This document shows positions 31,605 through 46,807 of a stretch of 64,000 nt of DNA, one piece after another. Source of the DNA: Paraburkholderia fungorum (GTDB lineage Bacteria > Pseudomonadota > Gammaproteobacteria > Burkholderiales > Burkholderiaceae); assembly GCF_003610895.1 (NCBI RefSeq), contig NZ_MCAS01000004.1:62001-126000 (forward strand), in the 5' to 3' direction. Under the pieces are notes generated by a model. It did no database searches, was not told the DNA's origin, and worked only from the letters and a program-made list of their open reading frames with translations. Position 1 is the first letter of the stretch. Every line of letters begins with the position of its first letter. A program made the translations under genes and the position numbers.

Positions 31605-32576
31605 TCAGAAGCTTTTCTGGACTTTCCGTGACGGAATCGTCATTGCGGCGACTCCAGCGACTACACACCCCAGCCCCAACCACGCTGACGCAGACAGCGA
31701 TTCCCCGAGAAACACGATGCTTATCGCGACGCCGATAGGAACCCGCAGATAGGCTTGCGCCGTTGTACCAACCGAACCCAGCGTTTGCACAAGTCGAAAG
31801 TAAATAACGAACGCGAGCGCGGTCGAAAAGATCGCGAGCGCCGTAAGCGCCATGAGTGATTGCAACGAAGGATGGAGTGTCCAGGGGCGGTCAACCACCA
31901 GACTGACAGGAACCAGCAGGATCGCGCCGACAATGAGCGAACCCGCGGCAGGAGCGGCGGGCGAGAGTCCTTTGAAGGACCGTCCGTAAATCGCCGCCGC
32001 TGCATAGCAAACCGTCGCTGTGACGATCGCCAACTGTGGAATGAGCTGCCGCCCAAGTCCTTCGAACGCGCTGACACCAACAACCAGACATATACCGGCG
32101 AGCCCGGCGACGACGCCGAACAGTTTGCGAGGTGTTATGTGTTCATGGCGAGTGATAAGCCACGTTCCGAGAAACGCCATGACAGGTGAGGCCGAATTCA
32201 GGATTGTCGCCAAACCGGCGTCCACCGAACGCTCGGCCCACGCGATGAGCGTGAAAGGAACAACGCTGTTCAGCAAAGCCTGTACGAAAAAACGCCGCCA
32301 CACTGCTGCGTCGCGAGGCATGGAAATGCGCCGAGCGGTCATCCAGAGCAGAAGGGCCGATCCGGCAATGAGCGTTCTCGCTGCGATCAGCGTGAGCGGG
32401 GGTATGGTAGCAACGCCAATCTTGATAAATGTGTAAGACGCTCCCCACAGTGTCGAAAGTGTCAGAAGCAGGATCAGGTCAAGAATGGTGTTGGGTCCGC
32501 TCGTACTCGTTGCATGTATTTTGGACAATTCGTTTTCGCAGTGACGGGGTGGAGATCTACGCGGCCCGTGGCGCAC
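31605..32576 (-). CDS. EamA/DMT-family permease (RhaT-like)
   Basis: Up to 323 residues with ten predicted membrane segments in two EamA halves. The first half has LLLTLSTLWGASYTFIKIGVATIPP and NSASPVMAFLGTWL. The second begins at about 170 and ends with RVPIGVAISIVFLGESLSASAWLGLG. It is probably an exporter of amino acids, metabolites or drugs in the inner membrane. The start is unclear: GTG at 32576 gives the longest form, while a TTG at 32528 would remove 16 non-hydrophobic residues. Neither has a good ribosome-binding site. Confidence 0.88.
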   Translation of the reverse strand: MRHGPRRSPPRHCENELSKIHATSTSGPNTILDLILLLTLSTLWGASYTFIKIGVATIPPLTLIAARTLIAGSALLLWMTARRISMPRDAAVWRRFFVQALLNSVVPFTLIAWAERSVDAGLATILNSASPVMAFLGTWLITRHEHITPRKLFGVVAGLAGICLVVGVSAFEGLGRQLIPQLAIVTATVCYAAAAIYGRSFKGLSPAAPAAGSLIVGAILLVPVSLVVDRPWTLHPSLQSLMALTALAIFSTALAFVIYFRLVQTLGSVGTTAQAYLRVPIGVAISIVFLGESLSASAWLGLGCVVAGVAAMTIPSRKVQKSF

Positions 32577-32807: not shown

Positions 32808-33476
32808 TCACGCGTCTTGCTGTGGTTCGGTTGTCACGACCAGCCCCGTTTCGTAGGCGAAGCGAAACAGATCGGCATCGCGTTCAATGCCGAGCTTGCG
32901 CATGGCGTTCATCTTCTGTGAACTGATCGTCTGTTTGGTGCGATGCAACTGGCTCGCGATTTCGTTGATCGACAGGCCCGACACATAAAGGCGCACCACT
33001 TCCGCCTCGCGCTTGGTCAATTGCCGCGCGCCTGTTTCGCTCATCCGGCCGTGCGCGGCGGAGGCCTCCGGCGTCTGGGTGCTCGGTGAAAAATAGGCGG
33101 AGCCCGCATACACGGTATGGATGGCCGAAATCAGATGGCCCACGTCGTCGATCTTGTTGAGCACCGAGCGGATGCCGAGTTTCAACATCTCCTGCACCAT
33201 TGCCGGGTTGCTGATCGTGGTGAAGACGATGATCTTGAGGTCAGGGTAGCGGCGCCGCAGAAATGACAGCAACGCCATGCCGTCGCCGAATTCACCGCCT
33301 GGCATGGCGTAGTCGGTGATGAGAATGTCGCACGACACGTGCGATAGAAGCTCGACGATCTCGGTCGAGTTGCGCGCGGTACCCGCTACGTTGAGCGTAT
33401 GTATGCCGGATAGTTCATGTTTGATGCCGGCTATCAGCGCGGGATGATCGTCTGCCAGCACAAGATTGATTTTCAT
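32808..33476 (-). CDS. Response regulator, NarL/FixJ family (BvgA/RcsB-like)
   Basis: A 222-residue regulator. The receiver domain has D9/D10 in VLADDHPAL, phosphoacceptor D55 in DILITDYAMPGG, T86-type switch in VFTTIS and K108 near VLNKID. The C-terminal LuxR-type helix-turn-helix is LTKREAEVVRLYVSGLSINEIASQL and QTISSQKMNAMRKLG. The receiver closely follows the RcsB/BvgA pattern. It diverges from the hybrid kinase gene, its obvious partner. The target genes are probably the fimbrial operon and the autotransporter downstream, which share a palindromic element with this gene's own promoter region. Confidence 0.93.
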   Translation of the reverse strand: MKINLVLADDHPALIAGIKHELSGIHTLNVAGTARNSTEIVELLSHVSCDILITDYAMPGGEFGDGMALLSFLRRRYPDLKIIVFTTISNPAMVQEMLKLGIRSVLNKIDDVGHLISAIHTVYAGSAYFSPSTQTPEASAAHGRMSETGARQLTKREAEVVRLYVSGLSINEIASQLHRTKQTISSQKMNAMRKLGIERDADLFRFAYETGLVVTTEPQQDA

Positions 33477-33599
33477 GGGTGACGTGGCCAGGTGGCGTTG
33501 GGCGACGGTTTGCCGTCAGCAGTCGGGTACATGGGCAGAATTTAGCCGATCTTGTTGCGCTGCGATGTCGGACCCGTCTGTAGTGATGCGTCATTCACA

Positions 33600-33616
33600 T
33601 CAGACTAGTCATATAT
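33600..33616. promoter_or_regulatory. GACTAGTC element in the regulator/kinase divergent region
   Basis: GACTAGTC at 33603-33610 is a perfect palindrome followed by ATATAT. It matches GGACTGGTC followed by AAATAG upstream of the fimbrial operon (37679-37693) and the palindrome upstream of the autotransporter. It lies 127 nt from the response regulator start and could be an autoregulatory site. Confidence 0.45.
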
Positions 33617-33764
33617 TACGCAATCTGGCGCTTGTCCGGTCTGCTTGCCTGTCGGTCGGCTCCCGTTCGGGCCGCAAGTCGATGGATAATCCGGTCAAAC
33701 GCAGCCGCGTGCATCGCCATGCCGCCGCGCACTTCATCCACTGTAAACGGAGTTTCGTGCACCT

Positions 33765-36700
33765 ATGCCCCAAACCCTCCAGCGTGGTGTGCTTGGCCGG
33801 CTGCGGCGCTACCAGCGCCTGCTGATGTTCGGTGGCGGCGTGGTCATCACGGCGGTCGTTCTGCTCGCAACCGCTCTCGATACCGTGTCGACCGTGCGTG
33901 CGCACATTGTCAATGAGCGGCAGGCTTTTCTCGTCGACAGGAGTCTCGTGATGAACGAGATCCAGGCGAGCGAGGGGTCGTTCCGCAACGGCCTGATCAA
34001 CGCTGAACTGATCTGGAGCGAGCCGCCGTCGGTCGATTCCGCGCTCGTCGAGCGCTTTCACGCCGGCGGCGACGAAATGGTGCTCCAGCCGTTTCCCACG
34101 CTGCGCTCACAACTCGTGTTCGGCGCACCAGGTAATCCCCCGTCCTATACGGAGATCGATCGCTTTCTCGGGCTGGCCACGCAACTCGCGCGCAGCAGCA
34201 CGGCGAACTCGCTGCAGCGCGGACAGCAGCTCAGCGGTTACTACTACAACGTGAAGCGCGATCTGGCCGCGCTGATTCCCGCGCCTTCGCCGCGCGACGC
34301 GCGTATGGCCGCGGTGCTGGCAGACCGCCGCAAGCTGATGGATGCGTTGATCAACGATCTCGGCGATCTGATGAACAGTCCGGCCGACGACTCGCTCAGC
34401 CAGCTGCGTCCGGTGCGCTGGATGCCGCCGTCGATCAATCCGCTCACCGGCGCCGTCTCGGTGCGGCTTGCCGGACCTGCGTTCGATCACGGCAAGCCGT
34501 TTGCCGTGCTGGTCACCGAGTATGCACCGCAGGCGCTGACTGCGCCGCTTTCGGTGGACCGCTTCGATGGCACGTTTCTGGTCGTGTCGGCCGACGGCCA
34601 GCTGATTGCGACTGCGGCGCAGCATGAGCCGGAGCAGGCGTTGATCGATAGTGTGCTCAAGTCGGGCGTCTCGCAGAAGAAGGGCGGCGCCCCCCTCGAG
34701 TCATACAGCGACGGCATCTTTACGATGCGCGGCCCGCTGGGCGATACGGGGTGGACGCTGGTCTATGCGTTTTCGTGGCGCAACATTGCGTCTGGTGTCG
34801 CAACCCAGATCGGCACGACCGCCAGCACCACCACCGCGATTCTCGTCGTTCTGTGGGTGCTGCTTTTCATGTTCAACCGGCGCATCTTCGTTCCGATGTT
34901 CGAACGCTCGCGGCGCGTATTCGAGAGCGAACATCTGAGCCGCACGCTGATCGAGACGGCACCCGTCGGGCTCGGACTAATCTCGACCGGTACGGGTGTG
35001 CCGCTCTTGCGCAGCCCGGTCATGGTGGCGATGGCATCGCGGGTCGTTGTGGACGCGCCGACGCTGTCGGCTGAACTCGTGCGCCGTCATGCACGCCACG
35101 CGCAAGGCGCTGCGTCGCGCACGGAACGTGACGTCGTCTACGACGATATCGCGCTGCCGACGCGTGAAGGCGCTCAGGTGGACCTGGCGGTCAGTCTCGC
35201 CCCCGCACGTTACCAGGGCGAGGACGTGCTCGTAACCGCGTTCACGGACATCACGGCAAAAAAGCTGCTCGAGCAGCAGTTGCGCGACGCGAAGCGCGCG
35301 GCTGATTCGGCGAATCTCGCCAAGTCCGCTTTCCTCGCGGCAATGAGCCACGAGATTCGCACGCCGCTCAACGCCATTCTCGGCAATCTCGAACTGCTCG
35401 CTCATTCGCCGCTCAACGCAGCGCAAAAGGACCGGTTGACGACGATCCGCACGTCATCGGACGGGTTGCTGGCAATCATCAGCGACGTCCTCGATTTTTC
35501 GAAGATCGAAGCGGGGGAGATGCTGCTCGAGCAGATCGAATTCGACGTGGTGGAGGTGATCGGGCGTGCGCTGACGATCTTCGCGCCGGTCGCCCTCGCG
35601 AAGGGTGTGCAGCTCTATGGCGTGTTCAACACGGCGAGCGCACAGCCGATGCGGGGCGACCCGGTGCGCCTCGGGCAGATCCTGCACAACCTGCTCAGCA
35701 ACGCGATCAAGTTCACGCGGGTGGGCAAGGTGACCTTGAGGGTGTCCATAGAGGCGCGGCAAGACGGTGCGGCGGGCCTTGTCGTGGCAATCGAAGACAC
35801 CGGCATCGGGATGTCGTCCGAACAGCAGCACGGGCTCTTCCAGGCGTTCTCGCAGGCCGATACGTCGATCAACCGGCGTTTCGGCGGTACGGGGCTCGGC
35901 CTCGCACTGTGCCGCCGTCTGCTCGACGCGATGGGTGGCACCATCGAGGTCGCGAGCGAACCGGACATGGGCAGCCGCTTTACGGTGCGGCTGCCGCTCG
36001 GTGGCCGCCAGCCGGTCGAATCTCAAGCCACCGTGTTTGCGGGCGAGCCGGTGATCTTCCTGTCGTCCGCCGACGAATGGCGGGAGTTCGCGGAGCCGCA
36101 TCTCGCGGCATGGGGGCTGCGCGTCGAGACGTACCGGCATCCGGCACTCGTCGGCGAAGCGGCGCTGGATGCGGCCCGGGCGCTGATTATTTGCGGCGAA
36201 CACGATACGTGGCATCCCGTCGAGGAAAACCGCCTCGTGGAAGGTGCGGCCTGGGTAGTCGAGTGTCATCGCGACGGGCCTGTCCAACCGGTGCGCACGG
36301 GGCGCGTCGTGAGCGTCTCGTGTTACTCGCTAAAGGGTCTCGAAGCGGCGCTGCGTCTGGCTCTGCGTGGCGAGGCACAGGCTGCGCGACCGCAACCGGC
36401 CGCGCGCGCGGACGACGCGCCGCTGGCCATGCCGCGCCGCCTGCGCGTGCTGGTGGCTGAAGACAATGCAGTCAACCAGCAGCTCTTCGCTGAACAGTTA
36501 GCGATGCTGGGTTGCGAGGCGCGCGTCGTGGATCGTGGGGCGGCTGCACTCACAGCGCTGTCCGAGGGCCAGTGGGATGTCCTGCTCACCGATCTCAGCA
36601 TGCCGGAGATGAGCGGTTATGAACTGGCGGACGCCGTCCACGCACGCTGGCCGTCGCTGCCGATCATGGCCGTCACGGCGCATGTCACCGTCGAGGAGCG

Positions 36701-37118
36701 TGCCCGCTGTGAGGCGGCCGGTATGCAGCAGGTGCTGACCAAGCCTTTGTCGTTAGGGCAACTGGCCGATGTCTTACTCGTTGTCGCCGGCACGGCACAG
36801 GCAAGTGTCGCGCAACCCGTCGACGACCGGCAGTCGATGCTCGGCGGCAAGCCGATTCCAGCGCATCTGCGGGAGACTTTCACGGAATCGTGCACGGCGT
36901 CGCTCGCAACGATCCGTGCCGCACAGATGAACGGAGATGTCGCGGGTGTGCTCGCCGAACTGCATTCGCTGAAAGGCGCGCTGGGCGTGTTCGGCCAGAA
37001 GCCGCTCGCGCTGCAGTGCGGGGAGATCGAGCTACAAGTTAAACAGGACGGAATCGCGGGGTTGGGCGACGCGTACGTACAGTTCGAGGCGGCTGTGGCG
37101 GCATTGATCGGACGTTGA
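33765..37118 (+). CDS. Unorthodox hybrid sensor histidine kinase (HK-receiver-Hpt; BvgS/EvgS/RcsC-like)
   Basis: A 1117-residue inner-membrane kinase. TM1 spans about 20-42. A periplasmic sensor of about 300 residues, without a recognisable solute-binding fold, follows, then TM2 at about 350-372 and a degenerate PAS-like linker (390-500). HisKA has H529 in MSHEIRTPLNAILGN. HATPase_c has NLLSNAIKF (N box), EDTGIGM and GTGLGLALC. The receiver domain (about 888-1012) has phosphoacceptor D943 in LLTDLSMPEM. The C-terminal Hpt domain has H1067 in ELHSLKGALGVFG. Phosphate should pass H529 to D943 to H1067 to D55 of the divergent NarL-type regulator. The signal is unknown. An 11-bp tandem duplication covers its stop codon. 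Confidence 0.93.
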   Translation: MPQTLQRGVLGRLRRYQRLLMFGGGVVITAVVLLATALDTVSTVRAHIVNERQAFLVDRSLVMNEIQASEGSFRNGLINAELIWSEPPSVDSALVERFHAGGDEMVLQPFPTLRSQLVFGAPGNPPSYTEIDRFLGLATQLARSSTANSLQRGQQLSGYYYNVKRDLAALIPAPSPRDARMAAVLADRRKLMDALINDLGDLMNSPADDSLSQLRPVRWMPPSINPLTGAVSVRLAGPAFDHGKPFAVLVTEYAPQALTAPLSVDRFDGTFLVVSADGQLIATAAQHEPEQALIDSVLKSGVSQKKGGAPLESYSDGIFTMRGPLGDTGWTLVYAFSWRNIASGVATQIGTTASTTTAILVVLWVLLFMFNRRIFVPMFERSRRVFESEHLSRTLIETAPVGLGLISTGTGVPLLRSPVMVAMASRVVVDAPTLSAELVRRHARHAQGAASRTERDVVYDDIALPTREGAQVDLAVSLAPARYQGEDVLVTAFTDITAKKLLEQQLRDAKRAADSANLAKSAFLAAMSHEIRTPLNAILGNLELLAHSPLNAAQKDRLTTIRTSSDGLLAIISDVLDFSKIEAGEMLLEQIEFDVVEVIGRALTIFAPVALAKGVQLYGVFNTASAQPMRGDPVRLGQILHNLLSNAIKFTRVGKVTLRVSIEARQDGAAGLVVAIEDTGIGMSSEQQHGLFQAFSQADTSINRRFGGTGLGLALCRRLLDAMGGTIEVASEPDMGSRFTVRLPLGGRQPVESQATVFAGEPVIFLSSADEWREFAEPHLAAWGLRVETYRHPALVGEAALDAARALIICGEHDTWHPVEENRLVEGAAWVVECHRDGPVQPVRTGRVVSVSCYSLKGLEAALRLALRGEAQAARPQPAARADDAPLAMPRRLRVLVAEDNAVNQQLFAEQLAMLGCEARVVDRGAAALTALSEGQWDVLLTDLSMPEMSGYELADAVHARWPSLPIMAVTAHVTVEERARCEAAGMQQVLTKPLSLGQLADVLLVVAGTAQASVAQPVDDRQSMLGGKPIPAHLRETFTESCTASLATIRAAQMNGDVAGVLAELHSLKGALGVFGQKPLALQCGEIELQVKQDGIAGLGDAYVQFEAAVAALIGR

Positions 37119-37132
37119 GCGGACGTTGAGCG
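37111..37132. repeat. 11-bp tandem duplication over a stop codon
   Basis: GGACGTTGAGC occurs twice head to tail, at 37111-37121 and 37122-37132. The first copy contains the last codon and TGA stop of the hybrid kinase. Confidence 0.85.
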
Positions 37133-37146
37133 GCGATACATCCGTA

Positions 37147-37350
37147 TCAGCAGTGGTCGGCGGCGCGTGGATCGCCCGTGCCCGGAGGTGCATCGTCACG
37201 TTCCCACTGCTCGATCATTTTCCGGCGATGTTTCGGCGATGCGAGCAGGAACTCGTTCATCGACGAGATGAAACGTTGCTGATTAAATTCGTTTAGCTCA
37301 GCGAATATCAGCAGCGCATGATTCGCAGCGGATCTTTTCTGTTTTGTCAC
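37147..37350 (-). CDS. Small conserved-looking hypothetical protein
   Basis: A 67-residue protein from GTG at 37350, preceded by AAGG at 6 nt. Its body, NHALLIFAELNEFNQQRFISS then MNEFLLASPKHRRKMIEQWE, is a well-formed amphipathic helical sequence with balanced charge and no frameshift. The tail is short and acidic. A longer form from GTG at 37398 is possible but has no ribosome-binding site. It converges with the kinase gene (28 nt between stops). Its position inside the kinase/fimbria locus might mean a regulatory role, but nothing in the sequence shows one. Confidence 0.6.
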   Translation of the reverse strand: MTKQKRSAANHALLIFAELNEFNQQRFISSMNEFLLASPKHRRKMIEQWERDDAPPGTGDPRAADHC

Positions 37351-37495
37351 GGGTGCCTTCGAAATTACGTATGCGCAGAGCGATTCGCCCGCACACACGC
37401 GTCGGATTCATAAAACGTTCGCCTGATCGGCCAGCATAGGCGGCGAGTCGGTCTGAAGCCGGTCTGAACGCGTGCGAGCCCAGTGTAGCGACTGC

Positions 37496-37525
37496 TTGAG
37501 CGAAGCAGAATGTGACGGATACTAA
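37496..37525 (+). promoter_or_regulatory. Candidate promoter upstream of the terminator hairpin
   Basis: TTGAGC at 37496-37501 is followed after 16 nt by GATACT (37518-37523), or after 18 nt by TACTAA (37520-37525). Transcription would begin near 37531, just before two hairpins. Confidence 0.35.
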
Positions 37526-37530
37526 AAGCG

Positions 37531-37591
37531 GCGCACTCATCAGCTAGTGCGCTTGTGCTCGGCCTGCCGCTATCGGCAGGCCGTTTTTTTT
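37531..37591 (+). ncRNA. Candidate short leader or small RNA ahead of the fimbrial operon
   Basis: A roughly 60-nt stretch contains hairpin 1 (GCGCACT at 37531-37537 with AGTGCGC at 37546-37552, 8-nt loop). The terminator hairpin with eight T follows immediately. A promoter-like sequence lies just upstream. No gene reads rightwards into this terminator except the kinase ending more than 400 nt away. It may be an independent small RNA or a premature-termination leader. No family match is known to me. Confidence 0.3.
37560..37591 (+). terminator. Strong Rho-independent terminator
   Basis: A perfect 10-bp stem, CGGCCTGCCG at 37560-37569 and CGGCAGGCCG at 37574-37583, has a 4-nt loop and eight T at 37584-37591. 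It is rightward-acting only; the other strand has no T-run. It insulates the fimbrial operon from upstream transcription. Confidence 0.9.
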
Positions 37592-37672
37592 GGGGCAGAT
37601 GCATGCGGCCCCAACGTGAATTGGATGTGCCATGCACCTGCGATTGCTCTGATGCGAGAGACACGGTCGCGA

Positions 37673-37693
37673 AATTTCGGACTGGTCAAATAG
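37673..37693 (+). promoter_or_regulatory. ACTGGTCAAATAG element upstream of the fimbrial operon
   Basis: The 13-mer ACTGGTCAAATAG (37681-37693) occurs identically at 42833-42845 upstream of the autotransporter. The match extends on the left through AAT-x-TCG (37673-37679 and 42825-42831), so about 19 of 21 positions agree. It lies 15 nt before a TTGACG hexamer. A likely activator site for the adjacent two-component regulator. Confidence 0.6.
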
Positions 37694-37853
37694 TTTGGGA
37701 AGGACCGTTTGACGACAATGTGCTTGCCGTTTGCGTGCTGATCCGCCACCTGAAAATCAGGAAGCGTCATCTGGAATTCACGCGGCGGCGCGACGGGCAT
37801 CGCTTTGTATGCCCGGACGCTTTATCAGCAATCAACGTCAATACGGAAATTCC

Positions 37854-38387
37854 ATGAAGAAGGCCATCATCGGCTCCGCTGTCCTCGCAGCACTGTCGTC
37901 CTCTGTTTTTGCCGCAGCTCCGCAAGTCGGCGCGGGTAACCCTGGTGTCATCACGTTCACGGGCGAAATCGTCGCGGGCGCTTGTGGTATCGACAGCAAC
38001 TCGCTCGACCAGACTGTCTCGCTCGGCCAGGTGCCGGCGCACGACTTCGCCAAGGTCGGCGACCGCTCGCCGGCACAGAACTTCGACATCGTGCTGACCG
38101 ACTGCGATACCACCACGTCCGCCAACGCGTACTTCACCTTCACCGGCACGGCCGACACGATCGTTCCGGGCCTGTTCGCGACGACGGGTGGCGCGGGCAA
38201 CGTCGGTATCCGTCTGCAGACGGCAGCGGGTGAGTACCTCGACAACGGCACGGAGCAGAAGGCGCCGGTCGTGCTGTCGAACGGCAACAACACGGTGCGT
38301 TTCGGCGCGATGTACGAATCGACCGCAGCGACGGTGACGCCGGGTGAAGCGGACTCGGTTGCGAACTTCACGGTTCGCTATCAGTAA
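37854..38387 (+). CDS. Type 1-like fimbrial major subunit (chaperone-usher pilin)
   Basis: A 177-residue pilin. The signal peptide MKKAIIGSAVLAALSSSVFA is followed by GVITFTGEIVAGACGIDSNS, the donor/acceptor strand region with the first conserved Cys. The second Cys is in VLTDCDTTTS. It ends with FTVRYQ, the usual beta-strand with penultimate tyrosine. It would polymerise into the fimbrial rod by donor-strand exchange, delivered by the chaperone and usher encoded next. A partial terminator directly after it should make it the most abundant product of the operon. Confidence 0.93.
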   Translation: MKKAIIGSAVLAALSSSVFAAAPQVGAGNPGVITFTGEIVAGACGIDSNSLDQTVSLGQVPAHDFAKVGDRSPAQNFDIVLTDCDTTTSANAYFTFTGTADTIVPGLFATTGGAGNVGIRLQTAAGEYLDNGTEQKAPVVLSNGNNTVRFGAMYESTAATVTPGEADSVANFTVRYQ

Positions 38388-38403
38388 GCCTCGCAGGTCT
38401 GAC

Positions 38404-38434
38404 AAAGGGGGCGCGCAGCGCCCCCTTTGCTTTT
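38404..38434 (+). terminator. Attenuating hairpin between pilin and usher genes
   Basis: An 11-bp perfect stem, AAAGGGGGCGC at 38404-38414 and GCGCCCCCTTT at 38418-38428, has a 3-nt loop and a short TTTT tail at 38431-38434. It sits 17 nt after the pilin stop. Partial termination here would lower usher and adhesin expression relative to the pilin; it may also protect the pilin mRNA 3' end. Confidence 0.8.
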
Positions 38435-38470
38435 CCAAATTCATCGACGTTCCACCGGAAGACACGAGTT

Positions 38471-40960
38471 GTGCGTATCAGGAAGTCACTGTTGTGGATG
38501 TCCGCGCTGGCAGTTTGCGGCCACGCGCAGGCGACCGAATTCAATTCGTCGTTCCTGAGCATTGACGACGAAAGCGGTCTCAATCTCGCCCAGTTTTCTC
38601 ATGCCGACTACACGATGCCAGGGACGTATCTGCTCGACGTGTCGGTCAACGATCAATATTTCGGCCGGCTATCGATCGATTTCGTTGCCGGTGACGAACC
38701 CGATACCAGCTACGCTTGCCTGCCGGAAGCGCTCGTCTCGCAATTCGGCTTGAAGCCGAAGCTTTTCGAAACGCTGCCGCGTACCCGCGATAGAACCTGC
38801 GTCAACATTGAATCGATCGAAGGCGCGAAGATCACCTATGTGAAGAGTACCGCACGACTGAAGATCAGCATTCCCCAGGTTGCCTTCGAATACGACGATC
38901 CGAATTACATTCCGCGCGAACGCTGGAGCGACGGCATCGACGGCGCCATGCTCGACTACCGCGTGATCGCCAACACGAACCGTCAACTGGGCACCGGCTA
39001 TGCCGGCGCGCAGACCAATTCGCTGCAAGCCTACGGCACGGTCGGCGCGAACTGGGGTGCATGGCGCTTTCGTGGCGACTACCAGGCACAGACGAGCTCC
39101 GGCGGTAACGGCGCATATGGCGGCGCCGATCGCAATTTCCAGTTCAACCGGCTGTACGCGTTTCGAGCGCTACCGTCGATTCGCTCGACGGTAGCGCTCG
39201 GCGACAACTATCTGAACTCGGATATCTTCGACACCTTCGCGCTCACCGGCGTCACGATGCAGAGCGACGACCGCATGCTGCCGCCGTCGATGCGCGGTTA
39301 CGCGCCCTTGATCACCGGTGTGGCGCGCACCTCGGCGACGGTCACTGTCTCGCAGCAAGGACGCGTGCTCTACGCCACCAAAGTTTCGCCGGGCGCCTTT
39401 GCGTTGCAGGACATCAGTGCGAACGTGCAGGGCACACTCGACGTTACCGTGCAGGAAGAAGACGGCAGCGAGCAGAAGTTTACGGTCACGAGCGCGGCGG
39501 TGCCGTTCCTCGCGCGCCAGGGCGAGATCCGCTATAAAGCGGCCGTCGGCCAGCCGCGTCTGTTCGGCGGCGCGGGTATTACGCCGCTGTTCGGTTTTGC
39601 CGAGGCGGCCTATGGCCTGCCGCTGGATGTGACGGCATACGGCGGCACGATAGCGGCCTCCGGTTATATGTCGCTTGCCGGCGGGCTCGGCAAAGACCTC
39701 GGCGAATTCGGCGCAGTGTCGGTCGACGTGACGACTTCGCGCGCGTCGCTCTGGTGGAACGGCAAGACTCAGAGCGGCCAGTCGTACCGCTTCAACTACT
39801 CGAAGCACTTCGATACGCTCGATACCGACCTGCGTTTCTTCGGCTACCGCTTTTCCGACCGCACCTATACGACGTTTTCGCAATTCAGCGGCGATCCCAC
39901 CGCCTATGGTCTCGCGGGCGGCAAGCAACGTTATTCGATGACGCTCGCGAAGCGTATCTGGGGCGTGTCCACGTATCTCTCATACGACCATTCGAGCTAT
40001 TGGGACCGTGAGGCGGACGACCGCTTCGGCCTCACGCTCGCGCGTACGGTGTCGGTCGGCACGCTGAAGAACGTCAGCCTGAACTTCTCCGCTTTCCGTA
40101 ACCAAAGCGTGACGGGCAGCGGCAATCAGGTCTTCGTCTCTGCGACGATCCCGCTCGGCAACCGGCAGACCGCCGCAGCGAACGTCACGTCGAGCAGTAC
40201 CGGCGGTGTGAACGTCAACGCGGGCTTCATGGGCGACAACGGCGACGGACTCAGCTATTCGGTGTATGGCGGCACCTCGGACGGCAGGCCGTCCGCCAAC
40301 GCGAATGCCCGCCTGCGGACATCGTCGTATCAGGTCAGCTTGCAGGCGGCCACGGTAGTGAATACGTTCGCCGCGGCTTCACTCGAAGTTGACGGCTCGG
40401 TCGTGGCGACGCGTCACGGCATCACGCCGCATGCGAACGGTGCAAACGGCGACACGCGCCTGTTGGTATCCACCGATGGCGTACCGAATGTCGCCTTGTC
40501 GGGCAGTCAGGCGCGCACGAATTCGGCGGGCTATGCGGTGATTGGCTCGGTATCGCCGTTCGACGCATTCGATGCTCGCGTGAACGTCAACAAGCTCGCG
40601 CTGGACACCCAGGTGACGAATCCGGTGCAACGCCTCGTGCTGACCGATGGCTCGATTGGCTACGTGCATTTCGAGGCCGCGCGCGGCCGCAATCTGCTCG
40701 TCGCACTCACCCGGAGCGACGGCCGCGTGGCGCCGTTCGGCGCCTCCGTGCAGGACGCGAAGACCGGCAAGGAAGTCGGCATTGTCGGCGAACGTGGCAT
40801 CACCTATCTCACGCAGGTGCAGAAGAACAGCGAACTGGCCGTGCACGTGGGCGACACGCTCCTGTGCCGGCTCGGCACGCTGCCGGACGACCTGCAGCTC
40901 GAAGGGGCGGCGACGCCCATCACATGCAACCCGGAGGCGCCGATCGCCGGCGGCTCCTGA
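38471..40960 (+). CDS. Fimbrial outer-membrane usher (FimD/PapC family)
   Basis: An 829-residue usher with a signal peptide (cleavage after HAQA). The N-terminal chaperone-binding domain has FNSSFLSIDDESGLNLAQFS and PGTYLLDVSVNDQYFG. The 24-strand barrel, with the plug domain at about 220-320 (PPSMRGYAPLITGVARTSATV is the conserved usher motif), follows. C-terminal domains have GSIGYVHFEAARGRNLLVAL and a terminal Cys pair. The start is GTG at 38471 with GGAAG upstream. It threads folded pilins through the outer membrane. Confidence 0.94.
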   Translation: MRIRKSLLWMSALAVCGHAQATEFNSSFLSIDDESGLNLAQFSHADYTMPGTYLLDVSVNDQYFGRLSIDFVAGDEPDTSYACLPEALVSQFGLKPKLFETLPRTRDRTCVNIESIEGAKITYVKSTARLKISIPQVAFEYDDPNYIPRERWSDGIDGAMLDYRVIANTNRQLGTGYAGAQTNSLQAYGTVGANWGAWRFRGDYQAQTSSGGNGAYGGADRNFQFNRLYAFRALPSIRSTVALGDNYLNSDIFDTFALTGVTMQSDDRMLPPSMRGYAPLITGVARTSATVTVSQQGRVLYATKVSPGAFALQDISANVQGTLDVTVQEEDGSEQKFTVTSAAVPFLARQGEIRYKAAVGQPRLFGGAGITPLFGFAEAAYGLPLDVTAYGGTIAASGYMSLAGGLGKDLGEFGAVSVDVTTSRASLWWNGKTQSGQSYRFNYSKHFDTLDTDLRFFGYRFSDRTYTTFSQFSGDPTAYGLAGGKQRYSMTLAKRIWGVSTYLSYDHSSYWDREADDRFGLTLARTVSVGTLKNVSLNFSAFRNQSVTGSGNQVFVSATIPLGNRQTAAANVTSSSTGGVNVNAGFMGDNGDGLSYSVYGGTSDGRPSANANARLRTSSYQVSLQAATVVNTFAAASLEVDGSVVATRHGITPHANGANGDTRLLVSTDGVPNVALSGSQARTNSAGYAVIGSVSPFDAFDARVNVNKLALDTQVTNPVQRLVLTDGSIGYVHFEAARGRNLLVALTRSDGRVAPFGASVQDAKTGKEVGIVGERGITYLTQVQKNSELAVHVGDTLLCRLGTLPDDLQLEGAATPITCNPEAPIAGGS

Positions 40961-40976
40961 CCAAGGACGACTTCTC

Positions 40977-41717
40977 ATGATGAAAACCGGTTTCCTGCGT
41001 TCCACCTCGCTGCGGCTCTGCACCGCTTTCCTGCTGATGGGCCCGCTGTTTGCGCATGGCGCGATCGTTCCAGACCGCACACGGGTCATCTACGACGAAG
41101 GTGTGCAGTCGGCGAGCATCACCATCGCCAACAAGAGACCGAAGTATCCCTACCTCGTGCAGTCGTGGATCGAGGATAAGGACGGCAACAAGGTCTCTTC
41201 GCCATTCATGGTGCTGCCGCCGCTGCAACGCGTCGAACCGAACGACCGCAACATTCTGCGCATCGTGATGCTGCCCGGCAGCGTCTTGCCGGCCGATCGC
41301 GAGTCGGTGTTCTACCTGAATATCCGTGAGATTCCGCCGAAGACGGACGCAGTCAACGCCTTGCAGATCGCCCTGCATTCGAAGCTCAAGCTGTTCTATC
41401 GGCCCAAGGGCGTGCAGCCCGCGCGCGGCGAGGACCCCACGCTGGCGATGACCATGCGGATCGACACGGCCTCACGCAAGCTGGTGTTCGATAACCCGAC
41501 GCCGTATCACGTCACCGTGGTCGAACTGAAAAGCGGCGAGAAAAAGACGCCCGTGCCGCTCGAAGCCGTGATGGTACGTCCGATGAGCCAGAGCGAAGTG
41601 CCGTTCAATGAAACCGCGCCAGCCACGCTGTACGTGGCGCATATGAACGACTATGGCGGTCAGACGGAAGTTCAGTACACCTGCAATGCGGGTGCCTGCG
41701 CGAGCGTGAAACCATGA
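40977..41717 (+). CDS. Periplasmic fimbrial chaperone (FimC/PapD family)
   Basis: A 246-residue chaperone. A signal peptide ends FAHG. Domain 1 has IVPDRTRVIYDEGVQSASITIANK (G1/A1 region), PFMVLPPLQRVEPNDRNILRI and FYLNIREIPPK, the classic chaperone signature. Domain 2 follows from about 145. Short F1-G1 loop spacing suggests the FGS subgroup. Two adjacent ATG codons at 40977 and 40980 are both usable; AAGGACG precedes them. The stop overlaps the adhesin start by 4 nt. Confidence 0.94.
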   Translation: MMKTGFLRSTSLRLCTAFLLMGPLFAHGAIVPDRTRVIYDEGVQSASITIANKRPKYPYLVQSWIEDKDGNKVSSPFMVLPPLQRVEPNDRNILRIVMLPGSVLPADRESVFYLNIREIPPKTDAVNALQIALHSKLKLFYRPKGVQPARGEDPTLAMTMRIDTASRKLVFDNPTPYHVTVVELKSGEKKTPVPLEAVMVRPMSQSEVPFNETAPATLYVAHMNDYGGQTEVQYTCNAGACASVKP

Positions 41718-42736
41718 CGAGACCGAGCTCATCCGCGAGATTCAGTGGACGTATGGTCAGGCTCGTGCTGCTCTTCATCCTCTGTTTGCAGGCGCATTCG
41801 GCGTGGGCCATGCGCTGTGTGACGAGCGCGGGCGCTGACAAGTTCATCGAACCGATCGGGTCGGTGCAGAGCTACCCGGTCAATGTGCCCGACGGCTATA
41901 TCATCTGGATCTCGCCGACCCGCACCACCACCGGCTACTGCTACAAGGATCTCAGCGGCCCGGGCAGTCTGCCGTTTGACGATCCCGTCTCGTTCTACGC
42001 GAATCCGGCAAACATCGATCCGGCCGTGTGGGGACTCGAGATCGGCATCCGCTACCAGGGCGTCGACTACTTCGGTGCGGGCAGCGCGCCGGGGCAGGGT
42101 GTGCCGACAGGCAACGTGGTTCCTGCCTGCTCACAGGACAATTTCAACGCCGGGCTGTGCCCGAAAATCCCGGTGAGCATCACGTATCAGGTCGTGGTGA
42201 GGAAGCGCGGAGCATGGGTTGGAATACCTCAGGATACCTACACGGTGTTCCAGTTCGACGGCAAGTTCGGGATCAACTGCTGCAATACGAGCTTTCAGTA
42301 CATCCTGAGCGGGCTGGAAAATCTGAAGCCGACGCCGTGTACTGTCGACGTCACCGTCAATCCCGAGCCGGGCGTCATCGACTTCGGCCAGGTGCAGAGA
42401 GTTCCAACGGGATTCTCGCCGGTCAAACCGACGAGGCCATTTTCGCTGGCGCTGGACAAGACATGCAATGAGTCGGTGCAGATAGGGGGGTACTTCGAGA
42501 CATCGAACCCGGTGCAGAACAATCTGATTCTGCCGGAGCAGGACAGCCAGTTCGGCATTGGCATTCAGGACCGCAACGGACAGCAGATACCGGTTGGTGA
42601 GCCGTTTCCTCTGGCGACTTTCACAGCGACTCAAGCCCATATCGAAGTGCCGATGACAGCGACACTCCAGCCGCTCGGCACACCGAAGATTGGTCCGTTC
42701 AACGCTGTGGTGACGGTGCGGGTGTTGTACGACTGA
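41714..42736 (+). CDS. Fimbrial tip adhesin (two-domain, FimH-like)
   Basis: A 340-residue protein with a signal peptide (cleavage after SAWA). An unusual N-terminal lectin-like domain of about 190 residues contains several cysteines (RCVTS, GYCYKD, VPACSQDNF, GLCPK, INCCNTS). A C-terminal pilin domain begins near PCTVDVTVNPEPGVIDFGQV and ends in AVVTVRVLYD. This is the layout of tip adhesins that bind host or surface receptors; the ligand cannot be predicted. The CC pair at NCCNTS may form an additional disulfide. The gene overlaps the chaperone gene by ATGA. Confidence 0.88.
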   Translation: MTRPSSSARFSGRMVRLVLLFILCLQAHSAWAMRCVTSAGADKFIEPIGSVQSYPVNVPDGYIIWISPTRTTTGYCYKDLSGPGSLPFDDPVSFYANPANIDPAVWGLEIGIRYQGVDYFGAGSAPGQGVPTGNVVPACSQDNFNAGLCPKIPVSITYQVVVRKRGAWVGIPQDTYTVFQFDGKFGINCCNTSFQYILSGLENLKPTPCTVDVTVNPEPGVIDFGQVQRVPTGFSPVKPTRPFSLALDKTCNESVQIGGYFETSNPVQNNLILPEQDSQFGIGIQDRNGQQIPVGEPFPLATFTATQAHIEVPMTATLQPLGTPKIGPFNAVVTVRVLYD

Positions 42737-42793
42737 GCGTTGCAGCCGCGCCGCTGCGTGTCCCAGAGGGAGTAAAAGTGGCGCGAATGAGTG

Positions 42794-42815
42794 CATATAG
42801 GACCAGTCCTATATG
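42794..42815. promoter_or_regulatory. Perfect 10-bp inverted repeat upstream of the autotransporter
   Basis: CATATAGGAC at 42794-42803 and GTCCTATATG at 42806-42815 are separated by CA. Read on the minus strand, the centre is GGACTGGTC, the same nine bases as in the fimbrial element at 37679-37687. It lies 93 nt before the autotransporter start and is a strong dimer-binding candidate. The T-run needed for a terminator is missing. Confidence 0.65.
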
Positions 42816-42824
42816 ACTCCTCAA

Positions 42825-42845
42825 AATGTCGTACTGGTCAAATAG
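42825..42845 (+). promoter_or_regulatory. ACTGGTCAAATAG element upstream of the autotransporter
   Basis: Identical 13-mer to that at 37681-37693 upstream of the fimbrial pilin, with extended left-side identity. It lies 17 nt downstream of the perfect palindrome and 62 nt before the start codon. Confidence 0.6.
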
Positions 42846-42907
42846 ATGGCGTCGCAGCGAAAAGAGAACATGACATCACTTCCTCTTCGCACATGTGAGA
42901 CGACACT

Positions 42908-45900
42908 ATGAACCACGCCTATCTTGTAATCTGGAACGCGACAACCTCGACCTGGTGTGCTGTATCTGAGACTGCGGCCCGTCGCAAGAAAGGCGCGCGT
43001 CGTCTCACTCCGCTGGGAGCGTGCCTGCTCCTCGCCGGTGTCGGCATGGCCGCCGGCGCGGCGCACGCGCAGTCCATCACGTTCCCCACCACCTCCACCG
43101 TCGACATTGGCAACACAACCACTGGGGTCACGAGCCTGCTGGTGGGCAATAACGTCACCGGCACGCTCACGGGGGCAGGCGGTACATTGGTGTATTCGGG
43201 TGGACCCTTCGCACTGGGCGGCACGGTCTATCGGACGACGCAGACCCTCGATATGTCGGGGCTCAGCAATTTCGTTTTTAACAGTCCCACCAGCTTATTC
43301 AGCGTGAGCGGGCAGATGAGTGGAGGCGCGGTGCAGGCGGGTTCGACCGCCGGCACTCTGGTTCTGGCGGGCGACTCCAATACGATCACGGCTTCCAGGT
43401 TTGGGATAGGCGACAGGAATCGTTCTCTGTCCGCGAACGCAACCAACGACGGCACAGTCTCGCTCGGGCAGCGTAATACCATCAACGCCGACTTGATCAT
43501 GATTGGCAACAACCAGGCTGGCGGCACGCTCAATTTTCAGAGCGGGGTTGCGGACGGCACACTCGTTGTGCGTGGTACGGATGGCAGCAGCCCGGTCTCT
43601 ACCTGGAGTATCGGCACCGGCGCCAACAGTAATTACAGCGGTAGCACCGGCACGGTGGATCTTTCCCAGGGTTCGCTGGATGCACGAGTCGACAACCTGA
43701 CCCTCGGTGCGGCCGTCTTTGGCTCGCAGTCAGCAAGCGGCACCTTCAAGCTGGGTGCTGGCCTGCTGGACGCCAATTCAATCACCCTGGGGCAGCGCAG
43801 CAGTACCACGGGCGCCGGCGGGGCAAGCGGCACGCTGACGATTGGCAGCGGCACGGTACGTGCACAGACGCTGACGATAGGTGACCGCTCGGGCACGACG
43901 GGAACCGCCACAGGCATTGTGAACCTGAACGGCGGCGGCGCGCTACGTGTGCAGACCATCCAGCCCGGCGCGGGTACCGCGACGCGCACGATCAACTGGA
44001 ACAACGGCACCATCGGCAACTACGCCGATGGCGCGGACATGACGATCTCCGGCGCCAACATCGTGCTGGCGGGAACCGGCACACATACGTTCCAGATCGA
44101 CGGTGCCGATGCAGTCGGTACGGTGAATTCGACGCTGAGCAATGCCACCGGCGCCAAAGGAACACTTGTCAAGGCAGGCTCCGGTACGCTCGTGCTCGCC
44201 GCGAACAACACCTATAGCGGCGGCACGACGGTGAACGATGGGCTGGTCAATTTCCGCACACTGTCCAACCTTGGCACGGGCAACGTCACGCTCGACGGCG
44301 GCGGTTTGCAATGGGCTACTGGCAATAGCGTGGATGTCTCGCCGCGTCTGAACGCGCTCGGTCAGAACGGCGCCTTTCTCGACACCAATGGCAATGACGT
44401 GACGCTCGCCCAGGGGATCTCGGGCGACGGCGGTGTGCTGGTCAAACAGGGCGCGGGCACGCTGACCCTGACCGGCGACAACACGTATGACGGCGGCACC
44501 CAGATCGACGCCGGCACCGTGCAGATCGGCAACGGCGGCACGGCCGGCAGCATCCAGGGTGATGTGCTGAACAACGGCGCGCTGGTGGTCGACCGTGCCG
44601 ATGAGGTGACGCTGTCGGGTGCAATCTCCGGAACTGGCACGCTGACGCAGGCAGGCACGGGTACCACGATTCTCACGGGCGACAGCACGTTCGCCGGCCC
44701 GACCACGATCGACTCGGGCACATTGCAACTCGGCGATGGCGGCACCAGTGGCAGCCTGACGGGACCGATCGTCAACAACGCGGCACTCGCTGTTGACCGT
44801 TCCGATACGGTGGTCCTGCCTGGCGTGATTTCCGGCACGGGCTCACTCACGCAAATGGGCACCGGGACCACCGTGCTCGCGGGCGAGAACACATACACCG
44901 GCGGTACGACGATCGACGCCGGCACGCTGCAGATCGGTAACGGCGGCACCACGGGCAGCATCGTCGGCGATGTCACCAATAACGGCACGCTGGCGTTCAA
45001 TCGCGCCGACACGGTGACGTTTTCGAATCTGATCAGTGGTACGGGCGGTCTGGTGCAGGCGGGGCCGGGCACCCTCAACCTGGAGGGCGATCAGACCTAC
45101 AGTGGACCGACCACGGTGCAAGGCGGCGTGCTGGCGGTGAACGGTTCCATTCAGTCGGCGACGAACGTCATGGCTGGCGGCACGCTCGGCGGCTACGGCA
45201 CCATCATTGGTGACGTGCAGAATGCGGGCGTAGTCGCACCGGGCAGCGCCGGCACGCCGGGCGGATCGTTCGGAAACCTGATGATTCACGGCAACTACGT
45301 GGGCGACGGCGGCAAGCTGGTACTCAACACCGTACTGGGCGACGACAGTTCGCCGACCGACCGTCTGGTGATCGACGGCTCTGCGTCGGACGCCGCTCGG
45401 GCCGTTGAAAGCGTCTCGGCCTCGGGCGATACCGGGCTGGTGGTCAAGCGGGCAGGCGGCACCGGTGCGCAGACGAACGTCGGTATCCAGGTGGTGTCGG
45501 CGGTCAACGGTGCGACCACCGAGGCGGGTGCGTTCACGCTTGACTCGGCGTCGGACGGCTATCGCAAGGGCTTTGGCACGGTGTCGGCCGGTGGCTATGA
45601 CTACATGCTCGAGCGCGGCGGCAACGGTGGCAATGCACAGGACTGGTACCTGGTCTCGGCGGCGCCGCCCGTTACACCCATTACGCCCGTCACGCCTGTT
45701 GATCCGGTAGACCCCGTGAAACCCGTCGAACCGGAGGTGCCGGTTGATCCGGGCAAGCCCGTTGCGCCGCCCAATCCAGGCGAGCAGGAAGACAACGCCG
45801 GCACGGCGCCCGTTACGCCCACGGCGCCAGCACCGCTCGTTACGCCCGAACCGGATGCCTACCTCGGCAACGCGTGGGCCGCGACGATGATGCCTATCCA

Positions 45901-46807
45901 CACGCTGCATCAGCGTCAGGGTCAGGCGGGCGGCAACGTCGACGGAGGTACCGGCATTGACGACGCGGCATGGGTGCGCGTGGAAGGCCAGAGCATGTCG
46001 ATGACCGGCAACGGCCGTGACGTGTCGGGCAACAACCGTACGATCCACGCAGGCGGCGACGTGCTGCGCTTCAAGGACGGCGGCGACGGCAGTTTCCGGG
46101 TCGGTGTGATGGGCATGTACGGTAGCCAGACCAACTGGTCGACGCGTGAGCTGTGGAACCCGCTTGCCAATAACTTCCAATCGGCTACCGCGCGCGGCAG
46201 TGTCGAAGGCTACAACGTCGGTCTCTATGGCACGTGGTATGGCAATCGCGACATCCTGTCGGGTCCGTACGTCGATACGTGGCTGATGTACGGCGCGTAC
46301 AGCAACACCGTCGGCGGCAGCCTCGCGACCGACTCGTACCGTTCAAGCACCGTCACCGGTTCGCTCGAAACGGGTTACTCGATTCCGGTGTACCAGCGGG
46401 GCAACACGCGTGTGTTCGTCGAGCCGCAGGCTCAGGTGATTTACTCGCACTACAGTGCGGACGAGCATGCCGCACCGGCCGGCCTGATCGGCGGCCAGAG
46501 CGACAACAACGTGCTGACACGTGTGGGCGTGCGCTTGCATGGCACAACGCCGGTAGGCAACAGCGGCGCGCAACTGCGTCCGTTCGTCGAGACTAACTGG
46601 TGGCATGGTCCGTCGTCGCCGTCGGTCGCGATCGACGGCAACATGTTCAACCTGAGCATGCCCGCCAACCGGATGGAATTGAAGACCGGGTTGCAGGGAC
46701 AGGTGACAAAGAACCTCTCGGTGACGGGTTCGGTGGGAGTGCAAACCAATTTCGGTGGCTACGGCGTCGTGACGGGGCAACTGGCAGCGAAATACAGCTG
46801 GAAGTAA
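42908..46807 (+). CDS. Autotransporter adhesin with ESPR signal and PATR repeats
   Basis: A 1299-residue type Va autotransporter. The extended signal peptide region is [21 protein letters not shown] (split pattern W-N-x5-W-x-AVSE), then RRKKG and a hydrophobic core ending AAHA. The passenger (56 to about 915) is Gly/Thr/Asn-rich beta-helix with passenger-associated repeats ([17 protein letters not shown] type). Three 68-residue units span residues 510-713. A proline-rich linker follows at about 920-980 (P-V-x-P repeats). The C-terminal barrel is about 985-1299, ending AKYSWK. No protease motif was seen, so it is more likely an adhesin or aggregation factor. The two elements upstream suggest coregulation with the fimbriae. 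Confidence 0.92.
44435..45046 (+). repeat. Three 204-bp coding repeats in the autotransporter
   Basis: Units begin at 44435, 44639 and 44843, exactly 204 bp apart, each encoding 68 residues of the form LTQ-x-GTGT...NTY-GGT-ID-GT-QIGNGGT-GSI...V-N-L-DR-D-V...ISGTG. A partial fourth unit starts at 45047. The period is constant while the bases differ, so the units are old but in register. Confidence 0.85.

Follow-up and report, generated by a model that had tools for sequence, protein, structure and literature searches.

A TAGGAC-NN-GTCCTA box upstream of an RcsB-like regulator, fimbrial genes and an autotransporter gene in Paraburkholderia fungorum is a candidate operator for coordinated adhesin expression

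In a 64,000-nucleotide stretch of the Paraburkholderia fungorum genome (assembly GCF_003610895.1, contig NZ_MCAS01000004.1, positions 62,001 to 126,000; the whole stretch is referred to here as the window), a gene for an unorthodox hybrid sensor kinase is divergent from a gene for an RcsB-like response regulator and is followed by a chaperone-usher fimbrial operon (37854-42736) and then by an autotransporter gene. Similar palindromic words precede the regulator and kinase genes, the fimbrial operon and the autotransporter gene, which raises the question of whether they are copies of one operator and which regulator reads it. We found that these words are forms of an inverted box that is present beside the same regulator in many relatives, recurs as pairs spaced by 31-32 bp, and lies upstream of adhesin genes. 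Based on these comparisons of sequences, we consider it probable that dimers of the phosphorylated adjacent regulator bind TAGGAC-NN-GTCCTA, likely activate the genes for the fimbriae and the autotransporter, and control their own promoters.

An initial annotation of the window had proposed GACTRGTC as the core of the element, and all strings that it quoted are placed correctly. An identical 13-mer, ACTGGTCAAATAG, is found before the pilin gene (37681-37693) and the autotransporter gene (42833-42845), and its two copies are the only ones in the 8.88-Mb genome (0.10 expected from composition); with the left flanks included, AAATTTCGGACTGGTCAAATAG and AAATGTCGTACTGGTCAAATAG agree at 20 of 22 positions. 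A 10-bp inverted repeat without mismatches, CATATAGGAC-CA-GTCCTATATG, is present at 42794-42815 (approximately 0.1 such repeats with that spacer are expected per 64 kb by composition), and the palindrome GACTAGTC-ATATAT is present in the regulator/kinase gap at 33603-33616. Within the window, GACTRGTC occurs at three places, which are the boxes named in that annotation. In the genome-wide search proposed there, this 8-mer gave 124 forward and 126 reverse matches versus 316 and 342, respectively, in the reversed control. Being common genome-wide and giving fewer matches than its control, the bare 8-mer was rejected as a signal, and testing was therefore done on relatives. Commonness across the genome, which the initial annotation had named as grounds for refuting its own proposal, thus applies to the bare 8-mer. 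A loose 16-bp pattern, ATMNGACNNGTCNKAT, has only two exact matches in this genome, in the gap and in the autotransporter promoter, and was composed after both had been viewed; it was rejected as a marker of kinase-bearing genomes, since 96 of 144 Paraburkholderia genomes contain an exact match to it.

A search of these 144 genomes with the kinase gave full-length or almost full-length relatives at an expectation value (E) below 1e-240 in 17, with the source genome counted. We took 39 stretches around these kinases and a more distant kinase group, in which genes were called as simple, uncurated open reading frames (ORFs). Divergent regulator and kinase genes with a gap of <1.5 kb were present at 15 places in these stretches, plus the window. 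Three gaps were set aside, namely that of locus L139, which nearly duplicates the window, and two from the distant group, leaving 13 gaps. GAC-N2-GTC is present in 12 of the 13 and is the top scorer among all dyads with 3-base arms and spacers of 0-12 bp, the next best being present in 7; when all gaps are counted, it is present in 13 of 16, and L139 has the box. With 4-base arms, GACA-TGTC (6 gaps) and GGAC-N2-GTCC (4 gaps) ranked highest, while the maximum in 200 shuffles was 2-4. The consensus across the gaps is a 14-bp inverted box, TAGGAC-NN-GTCCTA, with A/T-rich flanks; its two middle bases vary (TA, TG, TT, AT, AA, CG, CC, GT, and AC were seen), and GACTRGTC is accordingly too narrow a description of the core. 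Box pairs at 31 or 32 bp were found 8 times over the 13 gaps versus 0-2 times in 500 shuffles. Across the window and L140-L163, which together make up 25 close-group sequences (training sites included), 13 of the 32 intergenic box pairs located 12-120 bp apart have this spacing. Only 26 of 114 9-mers shared between dissimilar gaps touch a box, and the gaps therefore hold other conserved words.

To score the window, we used a matrix of 17 sites from the relatives' gaps, from which the window and L139 sites were excluded. Over the 64 kb, this matrix placed five boxes upstream of the regulator/kinase pair, the fimbrial operon and the autotransporter gene at ranks one, two, three, five, and eight (Table 1), in line with the common element that the initial annotation had seen at these promoters; the top three are the boxes named there, and those at ranks five and eight are their partners. 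The sixth-ranking site (42808) overlaps the autotransporter box pair. Shuffled windows contained a mean of 0.19 sites scoring ≥15 and 0.02 scoring ≥18. When one cluster at a time was left out, a significant box (p ≤ 0.003) was recovered in 8 of 10 gap clusters. Two further words in the ranking, at 28649-28670 and 32517-32538, lie within or close to coding starts.

Box 1 in the gap and the 31-bp register of the two autotransporter boxes had been overlooked initially. The center of box 1 is 98.5 bp before the regulator start and 190.5 bp before the kinase start, an offset that is unchanged in the P. sediminicola-like genome of L139; box 2 lies 32 bp from it, with its center 130.5 and 158.5 bp, respectively, before the two starts. 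The pilin box is centered 170.5 bp before the start codon, and in L139 its offset is kept despite a diverged flank, with the central TG changed to CA. The palindromic autotransporter box is centered 103.5 bp upstream of the ATG at 42908, and its weaker partner follows at 31 bp, a spacing that is also found in L139. All five have GAC/GAC half-sites, except that one has TAC. Overall, box centers lie approximately 70-190 bp before start codons, which is a usual range for activators. That the regulator instead represses these genes, or governs its own promoter alone, is unlikely given these positions and given that the fimbrial precedents RcsB (PMC3842833) and RocA (PMC12051241) are activators; in favor of these alternatives, a sigma-70 scan of 33400-42960 gave no promoter-like site close to the boxes and a single one elsewhere, within the kinase gene.

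Table 1. Boxes and genes of the regulator, fimbrial and autotransporter locus, in window positions
Feature	Positions	Strand	Evidence
Box 1, regulator/kinase gap, GATGTCGGACCCGTCTGTAGTG	33564..33585		Rank 5 in window, relatives-only matrix
Box 2, regulator/kinase gap, CACATCAGACTAGTCATATATT	33596..33617		Rank 2; leave-one-out p = 0.001
Single pilin box, AATTTCGGACTGGTCAAATAGT	37673..37694	+	Rank 3
Perfect 22-bp palindromic autotransporter box, CATATAGGACCAGTCCTATATG	42794..42815		Rank 1; pair model E 1.3e-4 (training site)
Weaker autotransporter box, AATGTCGTACTGGTCAAATAGA	42825..42846	+	Rank 8
RcsB-like response regulator, 222 amino acids, receiver and LuxR/GerE helix-turn-helix, recognition region HRTKQTISSQKMNAMRKLG	32808..33476	-	PF00072 and PF00196 exceed the Pfam cut-offs
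Unorthodox hybrid sensor kinase, 1117 amino acids, HisKA/HATPase/receiver/Hpt	33765..37118	+	Pfam
Intrinsic terminator-like stem followed by T8, kinase-pilin interval	37560..37583	+	Consensus scan
Fimbrial major subunit (pilin)	37854..38387	+	PF00419 (scan began at 37857)
Outer-membrane usher	38471..40960	+	PF00577
PapD-type chaperone	40977..41717	+	PF00345, PF02753
Fimbrial protein with C-terminal Fimbrial domain	41714..42736	+	PF00419, residues 205-340
Classical autotransporter: extended signal peptide, passenger repeats, beta-domain	42908..46807	+	PF13018, PF12951, PF03797; TIGR01414

RcsB-like regulators (E ≤ 1e-30) are present in 142 of the 144 genomes, and we scored 450 bp upstream of 68 regulator genes, 30 from the regulator search and 38 fetched in addition. 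These loci comprise 9 that had contributed to training, 1 duplicate (L267 is identical to L227), 10 untrained regulators with ≥60% identity to the window regulator, and 48 with less than 57% identity, which include many orthologues of one core gene and hence are not independent. A site scoring ≥14 was found upstream of 6 of the 10 untrained close regulators and 2 of the 48 distant ones (Fisher p = 1e-4), and the exact core GAC-N2-GTC upstream of 5 of 10 versus 7 of 48 (p = 0.024). Pairs at 31 bp are present at 4 of the 10, at -117/-86 in L223, L227, and L252 and at -119/-88 in L251. In the comparison across related genomes that the initial annotation had suggested, many relatives carry the element beside the same regulator. 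Many of the fetched species share a AAAGGCATGTCAGAAGTT-like word at approximately -50 upstream of the conserved core RcsB-like regulator (L273, L275, L277-L283, L286, and L287), and it may be that regulator's own box. On plasmids and megaplasmids, there was no strong box upstream of the RcsB-like regulator in L183 (P. aeruginosa), L184 (B. cenocepacia), and L186 (B. multivorans), while the boxes in L182 (B. ubonensis) and L185 (Cupriavidus) score 13 and 16, respectively. In L185, a megaplasmid of Cupriavidus campinensis, box-like sites at 829, 7637, and 9473 surround two adjacent RcsB-like regulators, and the operator type may therefore extend to another genus.

In crystals of RcsB with DNA, sequence-specific recognition of TTAGGAA is due to K180 and S184, which contact A6, G8, and A9 (PMC5829831). 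Based on the alignment to RcsB, the window regulator retains the serine equivalent to S184 and has Q at the equivalent of K180 (HRTKQTISSQK). In a first count, GAC-N2-GTC within 400 bp accompanied 13 of 28 Q regulators versus 1 of 15 K regulators (p = 0.008); after removal of the gaps used for motif discovery, the numbers were 4 of 17 and 1 of 15 (p = 0.21). Among untrained regulators, sites scoring ≥14 were found for 7 of 20 with Q and for 1 of 38 with K (p = 0.0016), and the exact core for 6 of 20 and 6 of 38 (p = 0.18). Because Q and K regulators with <57% identity to the window regulator do not differ in boxes (1 of 10 versus 1 of 38), the box tracks closeness to the window regulator and not the residue as such. 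As the cause of the box change from GAA to GAC, residue 180 was set aside, the effect fading without the motif-discovery gaps, and any role for it is weakly supported.

We then considered the adhesin genes. A pair model built from 14 box pairs was run on the source genome and on the 144 genomes. In the source genome, its matches were confined to two training sites, one in the regulator/kinase gap and one in the autotransporter promoter. Among the 144 genomes, 27 had a match at E ≤ 1, the strong ones being mostly training loci or near copies; approximately 7 matches at E ≤ 0.05 are expected by chance, and gene context rather than the E-value therefore carries weight. The surroundings of six non-training matches were viewed. 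Two precede fimbrial genes: the best match outside the training loci and their near copies (E 0.0035, G025:C2) lies ~180 bp upstream of a pilin-chaperone-usher operon, and another (E 0.11, G117:C2) lies upstream of a FimA gene that is followed by usher and MrkD-like adhesin genes. Two precede regulators (G004:C4 and G102:C11), and one lies in an interval between benzoate transporter and resolvase genes. The remaining one (E 0.043, G016:C15) adjoins a hipA gene; it is probably another regulator's operator and was rejected as a target. Box-like sites also lie upstream of YadA-type trimeric autotransporters in L144, L169, L172, and L176, at a distance of at least 500 bp from the ORF start in L172 and L176, and with scores of just 9-12 in L176.

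In a genus survey, loci were fetched without regard to the window regulator: 30 returned for PF13018 (the extended signal peptide of type V autotransporters; 144 genomes) and 30 for PapD chaperones (58 genomes). Sites scoring ≥14 were found upstream of 8 of the 30 PF13018 loci (0.6 in shuffles and 0.9 with permuted matrices) and 11 of the 30 chaperone loci (0.8 and 0.7, respectively). Most boxes at the surveyed adhesin loci depart from GAC/GAC. When the discriminating base was allowed to vary, a site scoring ≥14 was present in 17 of 30 autotransporter regions (400 bp; 1.6 sites per kb) and in 13 of 30 chaperone regions (1.1 sites per kb in the range -1200 to -600, which was picked after an earlier survey had shown the match positions). 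Among control upstream stretches, drawn from 20 arbitrary places in the source genome alone, 1 of 238 contains such a site (0.02 per kb); these controls have a G+C content of 0.57 versus 0.50 for the autotransporter and 0.54 for the chaperone regions. The commonest form at adhesin genes is asymmetric, TARGAATNGTCYTA, and close to the enterobacterial RcsAB box. Allowing one mismatch at most, it has 10 matches in the source genome (reversed control, 6), of which 6 are before adhesin genes: two at a YadA-type autotransporter gene (C69), one at a gene with the extended type V signal peptide (C6), two at a FimA-type pilin gene (C14), and the window palindrome. The other four are on C12, C43, and C45 and at C69:251140. 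In boxes before other adhesin genes of the source genome, at least one half-site is GAA, and in some both are. The boxes of the window look like one version within a broader set of RcsB-type boxes that precede adhesin genes in this genus.

The repetition of a short word by chance, for which the frequency of GACTRGTC in the genome could be cited, is rejected for the extended, paired box by the gap dyads, the matrix ranks, the leave-one-out test, and the enrichment at close regulators and adhesin genes; we regard it as hardly credible. A more serious alternative is that the boxes are RcsB-family operators read by another paralogue, e.g., the genus-wide core regulator with ~44-46% identity, and that the targets of the adjacent regulator are elsewhere. 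The near-universal presence of RcsB-like regulators and the boxes at adhesin loci chosen independently of the window regulator fit this alternative, as does the report that the paralogous Roc regulators of P. aeruginosa have highly similar motifs in vitro (PMC12051241). Against it, box presence among untrained regulators follows similarity to the window regulator, and symmetric GAC/GAC boxes account for 4 of the 10 sites that precede untrained close regulators versus 6 of 90 at adhesin genes. (A larger figure, 21 of 50, is partly circular because the training sites were chosen by their GAC-N2-GTC core.) We judge reading by a paralogue to be a real possibility, if clearly the less likely one.

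The preferred reading, binding by the adjacent regulator, has the following steps. The hybrid kinase would phosphorylate the RcsB-like regulator via a receiver-Hpt relay, and a dimer of the regulator would occupy each box. At the paired boxes of the regulator/kinase and autotransporter promoters, two dimers would lie on one face of the DNA three helical turns apart and may cooperate. Transcription of the fimbrial and autotransporter genes would then increase jointly with transcription of the regulator or kinase gene. RcsB, acting on cupD (PMC3842833), and RocA1 and RocA3 (PMC12051241) set a precedent for the control of fimbriae.

Several observations weigh against this reading. The source genome has five RcsB-like matches at E ≤ 1e-30, and with several such regulators per genome, any could therefore read the box. 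Of the 10 untrained close regulators, 4 lack a convincing box (L227 is marginal; L229, L234, and L235 are below the threshold), the gaps of L145 and L151_13094 fail the leave-one-out test, the two distant-group gaps have no box, and many of the relatives are not independent. Within the window, the pilin gene has one box and not a pair, and the words at ranks 4 (32517-32538, score 12.5) and 7 (28649-28670, score 10.5) lie outside the promoters of the cluster. Elsewhere in the genome, a near-perfect box, TTAGGACTGGTCCTAT, is located at G000:C43:16968-16983 (L004 and L369), 3' of a malic-enzyme/phosphotransacetylase gene (PF01515) and far from any adhesin gene seen, and no role was found for it. 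Finally, the loose 16-bp box matches exactly in 10 of 17 genomes with a full-length kinase and in 86 of 127 without one; a single box is therefore not diagnostic.

Regulators and boxes of this kind are known from other bacteria. Described initially as BvgA/RcsB-type, the regulator is RcsB-like: its best solved relative, aligned over almost the whole protein, is RcsB (5o8y_A, E 8e-39, residues 3-209), with which it shares the receiver, the LuxR-type helix-turn-helix, and the recognition region TISSQK..AM.KLG. It scores 159 bits against the RcsB equivalog NF008098 of NCBIfam (cut-off 235), and of the two contact residues of RcsB it has only the serine. The kinase has the RcsC-type architecture (HisKA, HATPase, receiver, and Hpt), at 399 bits versus the RcsC equivalog cut-off of 920. 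The RcsAB box is a 14-bp inverted sequence with the full consensus TAAGAATATTCCTA. The window box is likewise inverted, has the half-site TAGGA, and keeps G8 and A9; it differs in that the half-site ends in C (TAGGAC) and not in A (TTAGGAA) (PMC5829831), in that the boxes recur as pairs 31-32 bp apart, and in that GAC/GAC, once with TAC, stands in place of GAA half-sites. In P. aeruginosa PA14, cupD needs RcsB, and an RcsAB-like site before cupD1 is required for expression (PMC3842833). As in this PvrSR/RcsCB-cupD system, an RcsB-like regulator and an Hpt-bearing kinase are here encoded with a chaperone-usher cluster; the difference is that GAA was the part mutated there, while the boxes here are GAC/GAC and are also found before the autotransporter and regulator genes (PMC3842833). 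The Roc systems of P. aeruginosa (RocS1/RocA1 and RocA3) likewise combine an unorthodox kinase with a helix-turn-helix regulator of fimbriae: RocA1 controls cupC, and cupB is activated by RocA3 (PMC12051241). In vitro binding was also seen at the roc1 locus, but the Roc network is branched and includes the EAL-domain protein RocR (PMC12051241, PMC3083521). In agreement with the arrangement of the Roc and Pvr systems, the regulator and kinase genes adjoin the chaperone-usher operon, and a similar order is found on the B. ubonensis plasmid pRF23.

The BvgAS system of Bordetella is a case of two-component control of fimbriae and autotransporter adhesins, and the two-component genes here are likewise placed with fimbrial and autotransporter genes. 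It differs from the present system in that the best solved relatives of the regulator are RcsB, and no periplasmic-binding (Venus flytrap) domains were found in the kinase by Pfam at E ≤ 1e-3. Thus, the kind of system is already known from RcsCB/PvrSR-cupD (PMC3842833) and Roc-cupB/cupC (PMC12051241, PMC3083521), and the system of the window is set apart as a variant because its regulator is below the RcsB equivalog cut-off and its box is without GAA half-sites. Among the open-access matches listed, no title or abstract concerns this operator or RcsB-type adhesin boxes in Burkholderia or Paraburkholderia, subscription papers and supplements being outside the scope of that search.

By the sensor kinase, the closest named relative is P. 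sediminicola LMG 24238 (90% identity). In the interval between the kinase and pilin genes, a strong terminator-like stem is followed by T8; a scan of the region found 7 terminators versus 6.8 expected, and this call accordingly rests on the stem's own quality. Because of this stem, the fimbrial operon is probably transcribed from a promoter of its own, with which the position of the pilin box agrees. The last gene of the operon is predicted from its place and size to encode the tip adhesin. The perfect inverted repeat after this gene might suggest a terminator or RNA hairpin that ends the fimbrial operon, with the other words as chance lookalikes. We consider this very improbable, since no T-run follows the repeat, the scan passes over it yet calls the stem before the pilin gene, the same box precedes gene starts at many loci, and a partner box lies 31 bp away. 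Among the relatives, the hybrid kinase is duplicated in tandem beside one or two regulators in G036, G031, G092, G082, and G057 (L142, L154, L145, L151, and L150, respectively), and one copy in G057 is fragmented.

Three further observations concern the matches. In L139, a box at 5316-5337 (score 16.1) lies 70 bp upstream of a gene for a MASE4-GGDEF diguanylate cyclase, which is a possible link of the regulon to cyclic di-GMP. The palindrome ATCTGACATGTCAGAT and close forms of it recur among the matches listed in genomes without the kinase and are possibly the operator of another regulator. A match with three mismatches, TCAGGGCTGGTCCTAT, is located at a fixed offset (~400 or 760 bp) from the ends of contigs C4, C18, C38-C41, C45, C50, and C53, and a repeated element therefore probably breaks the assembly there.

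Paraburkholderia is a large genus of plant- and soil-associated bacteria. With the box defined, what were anonymous palindromes become a candidate operator code by which this genus would control its adhesins. Tentatively, and with more doubt than belief, we suggest a genus-wide RcsB-type adhesin regulon in dialects, in which the asymmetric TARGAATNGTCYTA at trimeric-autotransporter and fimbrial genes would belong to the core regulator with K180, and the symmetric TAGGAC-NN-GTCCTA, paired at three turns, to accessory regulator-kinase pairs with Q180. If so, paralogous phosphorelays would be kept apart by the diverged reading helices of their regulators, which would allow each strain several separately switched adhesins. 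If the box is read as we propose, fimbriae and autotransporters could be provisionally assigned to their phosphorelays from sequence, and the RcsB paralogues and their variant boxes would offer a system for studying how closely related copies of a regulator avoid cross-talk.

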